From Hymenobacter yonginensis (lineage in GTDB: Bacteria > Bacteroidota > Bacteroidia > Cytophagales > Hymenobacteraceae), in NCBI RefSeq assembly GCF_027625995.1, contig NZ_CP115396.1:1116001-1180000 (forward strand): 64,000 nucleotides of DNA, read 5' to 3'. Below the pieces are notes generated by a model, which worked only from the letters and a program-made list of their open reading frames with translations, was not told the origin of the DNA and did not search any database. The position numbers were made by a program, and so were the translations under genes. This document shows positions 27,149 to 32,803 of the stretch, piece after piece. Each line of letters begins with the position of its first letter. Position 1 is the first letter of the stretch.

Positions 27149-27235
27149 ATGCTGAACCTATCCGCGAAATGCTTTATGACCATTAATCGTCCTGTCCAGG
27201 ACGAGGTCGGGCGCTTTTGCGGGTACGAAAGGTAG
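27149..27235 (+). CDS. Short leader ORF (28 codons) before the first phenylalanine hydroxylase
   Basis: The frame opens at the predicted transcription start with MLNLSAKCFMTINRPVQDEV and ends with a segment holding one more Phe and one Tyr before TAG at 27233. It has two Phe codons (27173, 27215) and one Tyr codon (27224), fewer than a classical attenuator peptide. Its position, leaderless start and the terminator at 27274-27308 parallel the Tyr-rich leader before the second hydroxylase. Translation is not shown. Confidence 0.45.
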   Translation: MLNLSAKCFMTINRPVQDEVGRFCGYER

Positions 27236-27273
27236 AACACAGCATGCTTCTCCTTCTCTGAAATCCACTTAAG

Positions 27274-27308
27274 AGCCCGACTCCTCCCCAGGAGCCGGGC
27301 TTTTTTTC
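27274..27308 (+). terminator. Terminator inside the leader of the first phenylalanine hydroxylase
   Basis: AGCCCGACTCCT pairs with AGGAGCCGGGCT (one mismatch) over a CCCC loop, followed by seven T residues, 16 bp before the hydroxylase ATG. Upstream, GTCGGGC at 27206-27212 is exactly complementary to GCCCGAC at 27275-27281 in the 5' arm, so an antiterminator can form. Confidence 0.85.
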
Positions 27309-27323
27309 TGCCCTGTACGCGCT

Positions 27324-28058
27324 ATGATACAGCAACACTACGACCGGTATACCACGCAGGATCAGCTGGTTTGGAAGGTATTGTTCGACCGCCAGACGGC
27401 CCTGCTGCACAAGCGTGCCTGCTCGGCGTTTGGCCGGGGGCTGGAGGCCGTGGGCTTCCACCGCAACGCCATTCCCGACTTCCAGGAAGTAAGCCAGCGC
27501 CTGCAAAAAGCCACCGGCTGGCAGCTGGAACCGGTGCAGGGCATGCTCAATGATGCCGAGTTCTTCGGGTTGCTGGCCCAGCGCAAGTTCCCGGCTACCG
27601 TCTGGATCCGGAGCATGGCGCAGTTCGACTTCATCGAGGAGCCTGACCTGTTCCACGGCGTATTCGGCCACGTGCCCTTGCTCATGGACCAGGCCTTTGC
27701 CGACTTCCTGCACTTCCTGGGCCAGGTAGCCGCCCAGCACCTCGACGATGCCGTGGCCCTGGCCCGCCTCGAGCGGCTCTACGGCTTCACGGTGCAGTTC
27801 GGGTTGGTGGAAGAACACGGCCAGACGCGCATGTACGGGGCCGGTTTGCTCTCATCGTCGGGTGAAATCCACCACTGCATCGGCGACGTTTCGCGCCGTT
27901 TTCCCTTCGATCTGGCCACCGTACTGCACACCCCCTACAGCGAAGCGCACCTGCAGGACCAGTACTTCGTGCTCAACAGCTGGGAGCAGCTCACCGAAAG
28001 CGTAGCCGAACTGGCCGCGCTGCTGTCCTCGGGCTGGGAGCTGCAGCCGGTGGAGTAA
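27324..28058 (+). CDS. Phenylalanine 4-monooxygenase-like protein with altered iron site
   Basis: This 244-residue protein has the fold of bacterial phenylalanine hydroxylases, iron- and pterin-dependent enzymes that turn Phe into Tyr. Family motifs are VLFDRQTALL, IPDFQEVS, FPATVWIRS, LFHGVFGHVPLL and YGAGLLSSSGE. His111 and His116 occupy the first two iron-ligand positions. The third ligand, Glu in the usual WFTxEFGL motif (as in the paralogue at 32045), is replaced by Gln158 in GFTVQFGL, and the Asp after the first His is Gly. Activity may be lost or changed. It is preceded by an attenuator-like leader and followed by a terminator, so it is a single-gene unit. Confidence 0.88.
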   Translation: MIQQHYDRYTTQDQLVWKVLFDRQTALLHKRACSAFGRGLEAVGFHRNAIPDFQEVSQRLQKATGWQLEPVQGMLNDAEFFGLLAQRKFPATVWIRSMAQFDFIEEPDLFHGVFGHVPLLMDQAFADFLHFLGQVAAQHLDDAVALARLERLYGFTVQFGLVEEHGQTRMYGAGLLSSSGEIHHCIGDVSRRFPFDLATVLHTPYSEAHLQDQYFVLNSWEQLTESVAELAALLSSGWELQPVE

Positions 28059-28477: not shown

Positions 28478-31400
28478 TTACTCTATTACTAGGCGTTTTG
28501 TGGCTGGCCCGAGGGTGGTGGTCAGGCGCAGCGTGTAAACGCCCTGCGCCAGCCCGCTCACCGAAAGCTCCTGGGAAGAGCTTGCTGATCCTGGTGTCCA
28601 GGAATAGCTGCGGACTGCCTGCCCCAGTGCGTTATACAGCACGGCCGTGCCTTGCTGGCTGCGCAACGCGGCCGGCAGCAGCAGGGTGGCGGTGGTGTGA
28701 GCAGGGTTGGGGTAGAGCTGAATCTGCTGGCCCACCAGCGTGGCTGCATTGGCCAATATGCGGTTGGACGTCAGAAGCAGCGAAAAGCGCGGGCCGGTGG
28801 CGTCTGCTGCCTGACGGAAGGCATATACCGGCTGCTGGACCAGGTCGAGGCTGGTGCCGGTTTCGGCGTCGCGCAGGTAGGCGTAGAGCCCGGCCGGCAG
28901 GTTGAGCAGCTGCGCCGCTTCCAGCTGGTAGAAACCCGAAACCGGCACGCGTACTTGCAGCGGCACCAGCACGTCGGCGCGGCTGAGGGCGGGCAGTCCG
29001 CTGATGCTGAGCTGCTCGGAGCCGACGGGCAGCGAGAGGCTGGCTACGTTGCCGGTAGTCAGTTTGTAGGCATCGAAGGCGGCATCGAAGGAAGTAGTTG
29101 CTCCTTGCTCAAAGTACACGGTGGCCGCATCGCGCTGGGTGCCATTCACCAAGTCAAGCTGAAGCAGCGGCCGGGTCTCCAGGGCCGAAGGGCGGTTGAA
29201 ATCGGGGCTTTGGTAGCTGGTGAGGCGGGCGGCGTTGCTGAGCGAAAGGCTGCCCGGCGTGCCGGCCGTGGTGGTCCGCACAAAGAATCCCTGCCCCGCC
29301 GCAATGAAGCGGGCATCGCCCACGCCATTCACAAAGCTGCTGTAGCTGCCCGCATACGTCCCCGACGACTTGAACACGTACACCGCGTTGTCGAGCCCTG
29401 ACAGCCCCGCGGTGGCTAGGGTCCAGTCGATGGGGGCGGGGTAGGGGTTGCCCAGCAGGTGCCAGCCGGAGGTAGGCTGGGTGCCGCGCGTGAGGCCGGT
29501 GCGCGCCACGGGGCCGTTCGTGAGCGTACCCACAAAATCGACGGCGGCGCTGGCTGGCAGGTTCACCGTGTAGCCCACGCCCGGCGTCATGGCCGCCGAC
29601 AGGCTGGCCGGCGAAAACCAGCCTTGGTCGAAGGTGGCGGCCGTGGCATTCACCCGGCTTTCATCGTAGCCAAACACCGTGGGGAAAGGCGTAACGGCGG
29701 CCGGCACCGGGGCCGTGTTGTAGCCCGCATTCACCACGGGCGTATAGTTGGCCGTGCTCAGGTCGGCCACTGTGGTATTGCTGACGGGCGCGCTATAGTG
29801 GCGGTAACCAGCCCCGGCATTCTGGCTGGGGTTGATGTAGCGCTGCACCGTAACGGACCCACTCACGACAGCGGAACCATTGTTCACGACCATGGCAGTG
29901 CCGGAAGCATCCGAAAGCAAGGTCAGGGGCTGCGCGTTGGTAGCCAGGTTGCCATTCAGCGTCAGGAGGCGGCTCACGGCCAGTGGCCCGGTGAGCTGGG
30001 CCCCGGCCGGGCCTACCGTGAGGCCGGCCATGCTGATCGGGCTGCTGCCGCCTACGCTTTGCTGAGCGGGGCCGCTGAGCACCAGGGCCCCGGCCCCGGT
30101 GCAGCTGCCATTGTTTACCAGCGCACTGTTCAGGGTGAGTGTGCCACCGCTGGCTATTGTCAGGCTGGCGCCGCTGGCTATGGTGAAGCTATTGGCGCTG
30201 GCAGCGGCACTCAGCACCGGCATCCGGACGGCCGCCGCCGGAATCGTAACGTCGGTGCTGGCCGTGGGCAGCGTGTTGTTGGCCCAGTTGGCCGGGTCGG
30301 TGTAAACGGTGCTCACGCTGCCTGTCCACTGACCGTTGGCCGTGGCGGGCGGATTCACGATGACCGTGATAGTAAACTGCCGGCTCGCTACCGGGGTGCC
30401 ATTGTCGGTAGCCACTACGCTGATGGTAGAAGCGCCGACGTTGCAGGGGGCGCCAGTCACGCTCAGGTTCAGCACCGGGTTGATGCCTGAACTCACACTG
30501 GATGTGACATTGCACAGCCCGTTGGTGTTCACGGCCAGCGTTACGGCCTGGCCGGCTTCCGGTCCCGAAAACTGCGGCGCAATGCTCACCGTTTGTCCTT
30601 GGTTGACGGTGATGGTGTTGTTGAGTGGCAGGTTGGTAGCCGACGGGGGCAGGTTGCCGTTGGCGAATACGCGGTACGAGATGCACTGCTCATCCAGCCA
30701 GTTTACCCCGCTGGGGTTCACGTTGTCGGGGTGGGAGGCATCGTTGAGGTTGAAGCGGCCCGTCTGGATGAAGTCGTTGTTGGAGCCCCGGTTGGCGCCC
30801 ACGGTAGCCAACGAGCCGCCAAACCCATTCACGCCGTTGGAAGCGTCGCCAGTGGTCCATTGCATATCGCCATAGGCAAACGTCACATCATCCGTCGTGA
30901 TGCCGGTCGAATTGGCCCGAATGACAATCTGGAAGGTGTTTTTTTTGTCGGTATTGCCGCTGTAGTAGCCCACCCGGTTCCAGGTAACCACCAGCCGGTC
31001 GGGGTAGAGCTTGTACCAGATGCTACCACTGCTGCTGGGGCGCGTATCAACGTCGGCCCAGAAGGCGGCTACCATGGGCGTGGTTATTGGGAAGCCACTG
31101 GCGGAAAATTGCGACACTGGAGCTCCAAACGACAGGTTACCGTTGGTATTGATATACACACCTGTATAGGGCGTGCCAAACAGCGTGAATGTGAAGCCCA
31201 GCGGAATCAGGCTGGACGAGCCATCGTCGTTGCGCGGCAGGTTGGTGTAGCCTCCTGCCGCCGGCGCCGACACAGAATCCAGCGGCTCGAAACAGGCCGG
31301 AAGCTGAGGCACTGCGCCGCTGCTGGCTGGCACTGGCCGGGTTGCGGCCAGCACCCGGCTGCTGGCCGGAATCAGGCGCTGTTTGCGCAGGTCATACTGC

Positions 31401-31528
31401 GGGTCGAGCTGGGAGGGGTCGATGGAGCGCGGAGCAGCGGTTTGAGCACATACCTGCTGCCCTAGCGTTCCGACCAGACACAAAGCCAGCATCCATCGGG
31501 AAAGCAATGCCAGAGAAAAAATGCGCAT
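28478..31528 (-). CDS. Large secreted NIDO-domain protein with T9SS C-terminal domain
   Basis: This 1016-residue protein has a signal peptide (MRIFSLALLSRWMLALCLVG, cut after VCAQT). Next comes a nidogen-like (NIDO) domain (about 80-290: IPLGFTFTLFGTPYTGVYINTNGNLSFG, PMVAAFWADVDTR, RLVVTWNRVGYY, FQIVIRAN), then an Ig-like repeat (about 300-400). A segment of the WTG..W...NWANNTLPTASTDVTIPA type (about 400-480) resembles many secreted Bacteroidota proteins. Long beta-rich regions follow, and a T9SS domain ends the protein (about 930-1016: LYPNPAHTTATLLLP, GVYTLRL, RLVIE). It is probably a surface or secreted adhesin-like protein. No catalytic motif is seen. Confidence 0.88.
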   Translation of the reverse strand: MRIFSLALLSRWMLALCLVGTLGQQVCAQTAAPRSIDPSQLDPQYDLRKQRLIPASSRVLAATRPVPASSGAVPQLPACFEPLDSVSAPAAGGYTNLPRNDDGSSSLIPLGFTFTLFGTPYTGVYINTNGNLSFGAPVSQFSASGFPITTPMVAAFWADVDTRPSSSGSIWYKLYPDRLVVTWNRVGYYSGNTDKKNTFQIVIRANSTGITTDDVTFAYGDMQWTTGDASNGVNGFGGSLATVGANRGSNNDFIQTGRFNLNDASHPDNVNPSGVNWLDEQCISYRVFANGNLPPSATNLPLNNTITVNQGQTVSIAPQFSGPEAGQAVTLAVNTNGLCNVTSSVSSGINPVLNLSVTGAPCNVGASTISVVATDNGTPVASRQFTITVIVNPPATANGQWTGSVSTVYTDPANWANNTLPTASTDVTIPAAAVRMPVLSAAASANSFTIASGASLTIASGGTLTLNSALVNNGSCTGAGALVLSGPAQQSVGGSSPISMAGLTVGPAGAQLTGPLAVSRLLTLNGNLATNAQPLTLLSDASGTAMVVNNGSAVVSGSVTVQRYINPSQNAGAGYRHYSAPVSNTTVADLSTANYTPVVNAGYNTAPVPAAVTPFPTVFGYDESRVNATAATFDQGWFSPASLSAAMTPGVGYTVNLPASAAVDFVGTLTNGPVARTGLTRGTQPTSGWHLLGNPYPAPIDWTLATAGLSGLDNAVYVFKSSGTYAGSYSSFVNGVGDARFIAAGQGFFVRTTTAGTPGSLSLSNAARLTSYQSPDFNRPSALETRPLLQLDLVNGTQRDAATVYFEQGATTSFDAAFDAYKLTTGNVASLSLPVGSEQLSISGLPALSRADVLVPLQVRVPVSGFYQLEAAQLLNLPAGLYAYLRDAETGTSLDLVQQPVYAFRQAADATGPRFSLLLTSNRILANAATLVGQQIQLYPNPAHTTATLLLPAALRSQQGTAVLYNALGQAVRSYSWTPGSASSSQELSVSGLAQGVYTLRLTTTLGPATKRLVIE

Positions 31529-31823: not shown

Positions 31824-31854
31824 TTTGCCGGCTACCCTTTTCCGATTACCTTTG
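31824..31854 (+). promoter_or_regulatory. Promoter of the second phenylalanine hydroxylase
   Basis: TTTG at 31824-31827 and TACCTTTG at 31847-31854 are an exact Bacteroidota -33/-7 pair with a 19-bp spacer. Transcription should begin about 31858-31861, which makes the leader ORF at 31861 leaderless or nearly so. Confidence 0.8.
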
Positions 31855-31860
31855 CCACAC

Positions 31861-31950
31861 ATGCTGCTGTTCACGTCCCGCTATTATTACGCTGCTACCT
31901 ATTACGCTCCCCTCCGGAGCGGAGCGGCCGCGGCGTACGCGAGGAACTGA
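31861..31950 (+). CDS. Tyr-rich leader peptide (29 residues) before the second phenylalanine hydroxylase
   Basis: The ORF starts at the predicted transcription start and reads MLLFTSRYYYAATYYAP, then an Ala-rich tail with one more Tyr, ending at TGA (31948-31950). Six of 29 codons are Tyr, five of them within eight codons (31882-31905), and one is Phe. It lies upstream of an intrinsic terminator that precedes the gene for a Tyr-forming enzyme. This is the expected layout of an attenuator that senses charged tRNA-Tyr. Confidence 0.75.
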   Translation: MLLFTSRYYYAATYYAPLRSGAAAAYARN

Positions 31951-31983
31951 AACTAGCACTTCACCCTCCCCAACGTCATTTCA

Positions 31984-32018
31984 AGCCTGCTTCCGCTCCC
32001 TGCGGAGGTAGGCTTTTT
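31984..32018 (+). terminator. Attenuator terminator before the second phenylalanine hydroxylase
   Basis: A 13-bp stem (AGCCTGCTTCCGC with GCGGAGGTAGGCT, two G-T pairs) with a 5-base loop is followed by TTTTTCTTTTT. It ends 27 bp before the ATG at 32045, with no gene end nearby on this strand, so it acts on the gene's own leader. Confidence 0.9.
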
Positions 32019-32044
32019 CTTTTTCCACTTTTCTCGTTTTCGTT

Positions 32045-32803
32045 ATGCAGTCTGTTTCTGCCGCCCCCGTTGCTTCCGATGCCCTACCGCTGCTCACCCA
32101 GGTCTATGCCGATTACACCGCCGCCGACCAGCACGTGTGGCAGCTACTCTTCGACCGCCAGATGGCTTTGCTGCCCGGCCGCGCCGCCGAGGCGTTTCTG
32201 GAAGGCGTACGCCGAGTCGGCTTCACCCGCGACGCCATTCCCGATTTTCGGGAGGTGAACCCCCGCCTGCAGGAGCTGACGGGCTGGGAGCTGGTGGTAG
32301 TGCCCGGCATCGTGGATGACGCCGTGTTCTTCCAGCTGCTGGCCGACCGTAAGTTCCCCGCTACTACCTGGCTGCGCACCCTCGAGCAGCTCGATTACCT
32401 CGAAGAGCCCGACATGTTCCACGACGTATTCGGCCACGTACCACTGCTGACGGATGCCGGCTTTGCCGATTTCCTGCAGAAGCTGGGCGCGGCGGCCGTG
32501 CACCACGGCCAGCGTTGGCCCGGTACCCTGGAGCAGTTCACGCGCCTGTACTGGTTCACGGCCGAGTTCGGCCTGATTCAGCAGCCCGACGGTCTGCGCA
32601 TCTACGGGGCCGGGCTGCTGTCGTCGCACGGCGAGGTGAAGTTCAGCCTCAGCGAAGCGCCCACCCGCCTGCCCTTCACCCTCGACGGCGTGCTGGATAC
32701 GCCCTTCGAGAAGGATAAATTCCAGGACCTCTACTTCGTGCTGACCGACATGCAGCAGCTCCCCGAGAGCCTGGCCCAGCTCCAGGCACGGTTGCTGGAG
32801 TAG
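32045..32803 (+). CDS. phhA: Phenylalanine 4-monooxygenase (intact active site)
   Basis: This 252-residue iron/tetrahydropterin enzyme converts phenylalanine to tyrosine. All family motifs are present: LLFDRQMALLPGRA, IPDFREVNPRLQ, FPATTWLRT, MFHDVFGHVPLL with His126 and His131, YWFTAEFGL with Glu174 (third iron ligand), YGAGLLSSHGE. It is clearly a paralogue of the protein at 27324, 4 kb upstream on the same strand, but keeps the His-His-Glu site that the other has lost. Control by a Tyr-codon leader suggests that the cell uses it to make tyrosine when tyrosine is short. No carbinolamine dehydratase gene is adjacent. Confidence 0.95.
   Translation: MQSVSAAPVASDALPLLTQVYADYTAADQHVWQLLFDRQMALLPGRAAEAFLEGVRRVGFTRDAIPDFREVNPRLQELTGWELVVVPGIVDDAVFFQLLADRKFPATTWLRTLEQLDYLEEPDMFHDVFGHVPLLTDAGFADFLQKLGAAAVHHGQRWPGTLEQFTRLYWFTAEFGLIQQPDGLRIYGAGLLSSHGEVKFSLSEAPTRLPFTLDGVLDTPFEKDKFQDLYFVLTDMQQLPESLAQLQARLLE

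Follow-up and report, generated by a model that had tools for sequence, protein, structure and literature searches.

A putative tyrosine-codon leader-peptide attenuator in front of phenylalanine hydroxylase genes of Hymenobacter and other Bacteroidia

Genes and leader elements at the locus

The window analyzed here, a 64,000-nt stretch of the Hymenobacter yonginensis contig NZ_CP115396.1 to which all coordinates refer unless a locus is named, encodes two paralogous phenylalanine hydroxylases (PAHs) on its forward strand. The downstream gene, phhA (PAH1; 32045 to 32803), codes for a phenylalanine 4-monooxygenase of 252 aa that matches TIGR01267 with 273.8 bits (cutoff, 264.75) and carries the motifs FHDVFGH and FTAEFGL. 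The upstream gene, PAH2 (27324 to 28058), encodes a protein 53% identical to PAH1 that has a glutamine in a glutamate column of the PAH alignment, which we take to be that of an iron ligand. The glutamine (FTVQFGL) is present in PAH2 of 20/20 Hymenobacter sequences, the glutamate in all 20 PAH1 sequences and in all 60 of the other named PAHs aligned. Between the two genes, on the reverse strand, lies a gene for a 1,016-aa protein with a T9SS sorting domain (28478 to 31528). A protein search of genome contigs yielded 535 PAH loci, of which the best 80 were taken; the 19 closest among these best 80 of 535 (L001 to L018 and L064) are all named Hymenobacter and encode PAH proteins that are 81 to 98% identical, the next ones falling to 55 to 62%. 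In each of these 19 loci, PAH2 precedes PAH1 in the same orientation. The gap between the two is about 0.3 to 0.6 kb in 18 of them and about 4 kb in L012, in the window, and in the genome G148, the PAH1 of which is 99% identical to that of the window.

The region preceding phhA opens with a candidate promoter. A -7 box, TACCTTTG (31847 to 31854, forward strand), of the Bacteroidetes type, has a possible -33 box, TTTG (31824 to 31827), 19 nt on its 5' side. Six nucleotides after the -7 box begins a leader open reading frame (ORF) of 29 codons, MLLFTSRYYYAATYYAPLRSGAAAAYARN (31861 to 31950), with tyrosine codons at positions 8, 9, 10, 14, 15, and 26, five of which fall inside codons 8 to 15; codons 8 to 10 read TAT TAT TAC (31882 to 31890), and codons 14 and 15, the predicted decisive stall site, read TAT TAC (31900 to 31905). 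The original prediction had described both the TTTG-N19-TACCTTTG promoter and a 29-codon leader with five tyrosines in eight codons, and both are in place. Fifteen of the 19 closest relatives have an exact TAnnTTTG box 5 to 6 nt upstream of the leader ATG, the exceptions being L001 and L012, in which it ends in TTTA, L010, which has TTTT at 13 nt, and L005, which has none. The -33 part is conserved weakly: TTTG recurs at the 19-nt spacing in only 2 of the 19, and a further 6 have NTTG there. When all tyrosine leaders are considered, 55 of 137 have an exact -7 box within 25 nt of the ATG, 48 of these at 4 to 6 nt, and such a box precedes 18 of the leader ATGs of 45 representatives versus 8 of the 178 remaining ATGs of those regions. 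With transcription start sites predicted in this manner, leader ORFs that have the box may be almost leaderless.

Between the leader ORF and phhA lies an intrinsic terminator, as expected of an attenuator: a hairpin of 14 pairs (31983 to 32015; arms 31983 to 31996 and 32002 to 32015) followed by a T-rich tract that extends to about 32025. Strand 2, the 5' strand of an antiterminator (GGAGCGGA, 31916 to 31923), is a perfect match for strand 3, its 3' strand (TCCGCTCC, 31992 to 31999), which overlaps the terminator arm and loop. The strong terminator and the 8-bp antiterminator of the original prediction are thereby borne out, and its competing 1:2 pair (31906 to 31910 with 31916 to 31920) is also present but as a fragment of a bigger structure. 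In the minimum free energy (MFE) fold, strand 1 (31905 to 31910) pairs with 31916 to 31921, and this short hairpin is enclosed by a helix between 31888 to 31895 and 31930 to 31937, which places part of the tyrosine run within the 5' arm of the 1:2 structure. The 190-nt leader as a whole folds 4.8 standard deviations (SD) below its own shuffles (z = -4.79).

PAH2 is preceded by a leader of a different type. Its ORF, MLNLSAKCFMTINRPVQDEVGRFCGYER (27149 to 27235), has no amino acid run and displays an in-frame substitution pattern (49 synonymous and 71 nonsynonymous differences and no stops, against 29/92/38 and 26/107/24 in the other two frames). A terminator follows at 27272 to 27302, the 5' arm of which can, as judged by eye, pair with an antiterminator-like segment at 27203 to 27212 that adjoins a hairpin at 27188 to 27203. 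These features suggest that PAH2 has a putative leader-ORF attenuator of its own. With a model of this leader, each of 20 chosen genomes showed a single strong match, always at a PAH gene; G007 had an extra one at a degraded copy, and weaker matches (E = 1e-4 to 0.05) were numerous. Of the 13 PAHs behind matches of the model, 8 have the glutamine and 5 have the glutamate. The intact PAH2 leader of the locus L017 is preceded, 2.6 kb upstream, by an additional leader of the PAH2 type (2183 to 2350 of that locus), after which comes an apparently degraded PAH start. The model also matches four loci of a PAH class of mostly 43 to 50% identity (E = 1e-8 to 2e-11). Leader ORFs with tails resembling CPKQGxxGLRLAL and a terminator thereafter were observed in that class (L323 to L329, L331 to L334, L340, and L341).

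Conservation, spread, and covariation of the tyrosine leader

All 19 closest loci have leaders of 27 to 29 codons with five or six tyrosines and then a terminator, and this combination is found in 20/20 close sequences. The leader core reads YYYAATYY or YYAYAYY in the 19, followed by SGAA, the latter being the criterion by which the leader ORF was picked in the 20 Hymenobacter sequences. Four tyrosine columns, occupied by TAT and TAC only, are common to all 20, and the remaining tyrosine codons are placed differently in the two leader subtypes. The leader frame has 34 synonymous and 37 nonsynonymous single differences with no stops, compared with 20/47/13 and 14/69/1 when the remaining two frames are read; this short ORF with repeated cognate codons thus bears the signature of coding constraint that an attenuator leader is predicted to have. 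In the alignment of the 20 sequences, 99.6% of the cells of the terminator are paired, with two doubly changed pairs, and the two-part 1:2 structure is paired in 88.2%, also with two doubly changed pairs; six of the eight pairs of its long helix are kept in all 20, and the two inner ones are broken in 13 and 14 of them. The antiterminator is paired in 98.1% of cells with no doubly changed pair, so within Hymenobacter it can be called only conserved, and the case for covariation rests on the wider set. An alignment of orthologous leaders had been proposed as the check on the original prediction, with leaders devoid of tyrosine codons or of a terminator as the outcome that would speak against it. 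Tyrosine codons, terminator, and both pairings are kept in the 19 closest orthologs with few mismatches, and no such deviant leader occurs among them.

We then considered samples of the family, order, and class, in which 112 of 150, 90 of 157, and 33 of 198 genomes, respectively, have a PAH. A strict rule (at least four tyrosines in 10 codons of an ATG-initiated ORF of 10 to 60 codons) was positive at 44 of the 80 named loci (the best 80 of 535), in 74 of the 112 family genomes (28/30, 45/60, 1/8, and 0/14 by group), in 11 of the 90 order genomes (79 being negative), and at 9 of 28 class loci examined, two of them from genomes already counted. The group with 0/14 comprises genomes whose best PAH is of the above-noted class of mostly 43 to 50% identity, in which a tyrosine leader was recognized in 0 of 20 cases; it is likewise absent from six Cyclobacteriaceae isolates (L051, L062, L066, L069, L070, and L076). 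The rule misses some likely leaders, namely, L114, L118, and L031, with three tyrosines in a row or near it, L040, with tyrosine and histidine, and L061 and L271 (61 aa). The count of positives includes L320, which is probably false, since a leader of the PAH2 type sits nearer to the gene, and which also remains among the 45 representatives. In the family, order, and class samples, the pattern reappears in sequences that are not similar. On a 145-row PAH tree, its distribution entails 20 changes, at least 11 of them forced by starred branches, a patchiness that permits no claim of a single origin. By these sequence patterns, the tyrosine leader is frequent within the family and of scattered occurrence outside it, and PAH genes without a recognized one are common in other lineages.

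A nonredundant set of 194 phhA upstream regions from 228 loci, nearly all labeled Bacteroidota where named and with later family regions left out, allowed comparison with chance expectation. Tyrosine-rich leader ORFs occur in 72 of the 194 regions, versus 1 in their reverse complements and a mean of 0.85 over 20 rounds of dinucleotide shuffling. The next amino acid after tyrosine, alanine, is found in 32 regions against 8 and 6.45 in the same controls, an excess that probably comes from the alanine-rich Hymenobacter leaders. A terminator lies downstream of the tyrosine run in 71 of the 72 nonredundant leaders and in 134 of all 137 when redundant ones are kept.

Representatives less than 75% alike were also subjected to a swap test, in which the segment after the tyrosine run was paired with its own or a swapped terminator arm. 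For the antiterminator, own pairs averaged -14.84 kcal/mol and swapped ones -11.42 kcal/mol (SD, 0.45) in 35 representatives, and -14.69 versus -11.10 kcal/mol (SD, 0.40) in 45 representatives, with L320 included; for the 1:2 pairing, the values for the 35 were -7.25 and -5.35 (SD, 0.36). None of 20,000 permutations reached the own-pair value in any of the three comparisons. The pairing and swap tests agree that, as in known attenuators, the antiterminator excludes the terminator and the 1:2 hairpin excludes the antiterminator. It is exceedingly improbable that the tyrosine ORF arose by chance next to a terminator that is part of an upstream unit or a repeat of a generic kind. Terminators do occur in front of PAH genes without a tyrosine leader, in 41 of 122 such regions by the common criterion that gives 71 of 72 for the positive ones; against this stand the near-constant terminator of the tyrosine leaders, a tyrosine excess far over both controls, and own-pair energies that beat every permutation.

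A model of control by tyrosyl-tRNA charging

In 29 of the 35 representatives, the antiterminator 5' strand begins 8 to 19 nt past the last tyrosine codon of the run, a spacing that fits a stalled ribosome covering strand 1; in the other six, it begins 0 to 5 nt past that codon. In a folding model of the window leader, with the RNA end at 31999 and the ribosome assumed to extend 16 nt beyond the first base of the P site, the mean antiterminator pair probability is 0.93 for a stall at Tyr14 and 0.81 at Tyr15, as opposed to 0.16 for stalls at Tyr8 to Tyr10 and 0.00 without a ribosome. Codons 14 and 15, rather than 8 to 10, are therefore predicted to matter most; under the assumed footprint, it is these two that would have the placement required of the sensor codons of an attenuator. 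In the full-length RNA, folding predicts that the terminator wins thermodynamically whatever the position of the ribosome, meaning that the switch must be kinetic and decided during transcription.

On the basis of these observations, we propose that phhA is very probably controlled by a ribosome-mediated transcription attenuator that reads the charging of tyrosyl-tRNA. Transcription would start just before the leader ATG. When tyrosyl-tRNA is charged, the ribosome would pass the tyrosine codons and reach the stop codon, strand 1 would pair with strand 2, the terminator would form, and phhA would be off. When tyrosine is short, the ribosome would stall at Tyr14 or Tyr15 and cover strand 1, so that strands 2 and 3 could pair while the terminator is still incomplete; the resulting antiterminator would let RNA polymerase read through, and the PAH then made would convert phenylalanine to tyrosine.

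Two other ways of sensing merit consideration. In the first, the leader would be an arrest peptide, the tyrosine-rich nascent chain of which stalls the ribosome on free tyrosine, phenylalanine, or a pterin instead of reporting tRNA charging. The residues past the tyrosine run are indeed kept in Hymenobacter, SGAA being present in 20/20, although SGAA is also how the ORF was picked; furthermore, the SGAA codons overlap the antiterminator strand, which accounts for their conservation, and tyrosine richness is, by eye, the sole feature common to the 45 representatives. We consider such an arrest peptide quite unlikely. Still less likely is a T-box, riboswitch, or RNA-binding protein that senses tyrosine, with the ORF incidental, since distant leaders have tyrosine codons in common and neither the T-box model nor any other Rfam family reached its gathering score in the window or 10 related loci. 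A subthreshold match to HepC_CRE (24.3 bits; gathering score, 140; E = 0.00013) was taken as chance.

The preferred reading, attenuation by charged tRNA, places the phhA leader in a classical category. The trp and phe attenuators of Escherichia coli have the same layout of a 1:2 pairing, an antiterminator, and a terminator. Like trpL of the trp operon and pheL of pheA, which are described as peptides with the regulated amino acid and control by charged tRNA (PMC11802643), the phhA leader encodes the residue concerned; it differs in having tyrosine codons instead of those for tryptophan or phenylalanine, a target that makes tyrosine from phenylalanine, and an ATG only a few nucleotides past the -7 box. 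For the E. coli DAHP synthase genes, the same source names the repressors TyrR and TrpR (PMC11802643). In its account of Corynebacterium glutamicum, the aroR attenuator of aroF, likewise with an aromatic leader (Phe-Tyr-Phe), answers phenylalanine limitation and tyrosine availability is without effect, unlike what the repeated tyrosines of the phhA leader would imply (PMC11802643). Attenuation was hypothesized for E. coli aroF-tyrA, which also concerns the tyrosine pathway but other genes in another organism (Camakaris 1980, cited in PMC8632094). The uORFC-8-2 (cysS) and uORFC-13-1 (aroF) attenuators were, like that of phhA, predicted by comparison, and they involve cysteine codons or a suggested phenylalanine incorporation in other genes and taxa (passages on these uORFs in PMC8632094). 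The original prediction knew of no description of PAH under tyrosine-codon attenuation, and we found none in the open-access literature searched. Within those searches, it is new for tyrosine to be the only signal and for PAH to be the target; if the model is correct, leader-peptide attenuation gains both.

Tyrosine specificity and the role of the hydroxylase

The best 10 codons of the phhA leaders contain on average 5.2 tyrosines and 0.13 phenylalanine (45 representatives), in contrast to the pheA leaders of seven related genomes, in which phenylalanine is about as frequent as tyrosine. Mixed Phe/Tyr leader ORFs precede pheA in the family genomes G001, G148, G010, G130, and G088, with two in tandem in four, and one each is found in G468 and G381, amounting to 7 of 15 pheA regions; the remaining eight, like one region before tyrA, resemble coding sequence by eye and carry no information on leaders. 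With tyrosine alone at phhA and both amino acids at pheA, the leaders match the products of the enzymes. The mixed pheA leaders were noted at L246, L247, L254, L260, and L261 (also L253 and L259), and terminator-like hairpins were seen, by eye only, near pheA leaders. When 14 genomes were scanned with a model of the Hymenobacter-type leader, 11 had a single strong match, which lay at phhA (E = 1.4e-38 to 3.3e-6), and no strong match was found elsewhere in the 14. The model misses more distant tyrosine leaders, such as those at phhA of G009 and G010, and its result therefore covers this leader type only. A further nine matches were weaker (E = 0.001 to 0.1) and were rejected, five being on inspection terminators without a tyrosine ORF and four partial matches to the terminator part.

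The implication of the original prediction that PAH is used anabolically receives a mixed answer from gene content. Among 49 leader-bearing genomes, 22 have tyrA and 33 have pheA, with 11 having pheA only and 16 neither. The 11 with pheA and no tyrA match, in which PAH is the only tyrosine route seen, fit an anabolic role, as does the tyrosine-only leader. However, tyrA was not found in 27 of the 49 leader-bearing and 19 of 31 leader-negative genomes (12 of the 31 have it), so that its absence does not mark the leader-bearing ones. Neither tyrA nor pheA was detected at the thresholds used in 10 family genomes with a tyrosine leader (G003, G005, G009, G018, G024, G029, G118, G126, G144, and G152), which may be phenylalanine dependent.

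It is conceivable that control operates as proposed and PAH nevertheless serves mainly phenylalanine removal, pigment formation, or pterin-linked metabolism, with tyrosine shortage as one input. Among the 49 leader-bearing genomes, 47 encode HPPD, an enzyme of tyrosine breakdown, as do 76 of 80 overall, so that PAH may also have a catabolic side; the 22 leader-bearing genomes with tyrA and the equally frequent lack of tyrA in leader-negative ones likewise favor this alternative. Nonetheless, no leader-bearing genome of the 49 has HPPD within 5 kb of phhA, versus 11 of the 31 leader-negative ones (Fisher P = 8e-6), at least 6 of the 11 being of one clade, and the genomes in which PAH is the only tyrosine route seen also weigh against this alternative. 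On balance, we regard it as rather unlikely.

The six leaderless isolates mentioned above belong to the Cyclobacteriaceae, which we take to be the family of Echinicola as well. A biosynthetic PAH has been proposed on fitness data for Echinicola vietnamensis and Dyella japonica, and in earlier work for Legionella; this is the tyrosine-making role proposed here, and cis regulation is not mentioned in the passages of that source on these enzymes (PMC7311316). Anabolic use of PAH thus does not appear to need the leader.

When the contrast with pheA in some of the same genomes, the leaderless state of HPPD-adjacent PAH genes, and the separate putative attenuator of the co-inherited PAH2 are read jointly, it is possible, at somewhat short of an even chance, that in many Bacteroidia the tyrosine-only attenuator marks PAH as a regulated route to tyrosine, which in some genomes is the only one. 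The role of PAH in tyrosine synthesis has so far been argued from genetics in a few strains; if this reading holds, the leader would be a sign in the sequence itself of a PAH that serves tyrosine synthesis, its absence being uninformative, and phhA in many Bacteroidota would be predicted to be on when tyrosine, not phenylalanine, is short.
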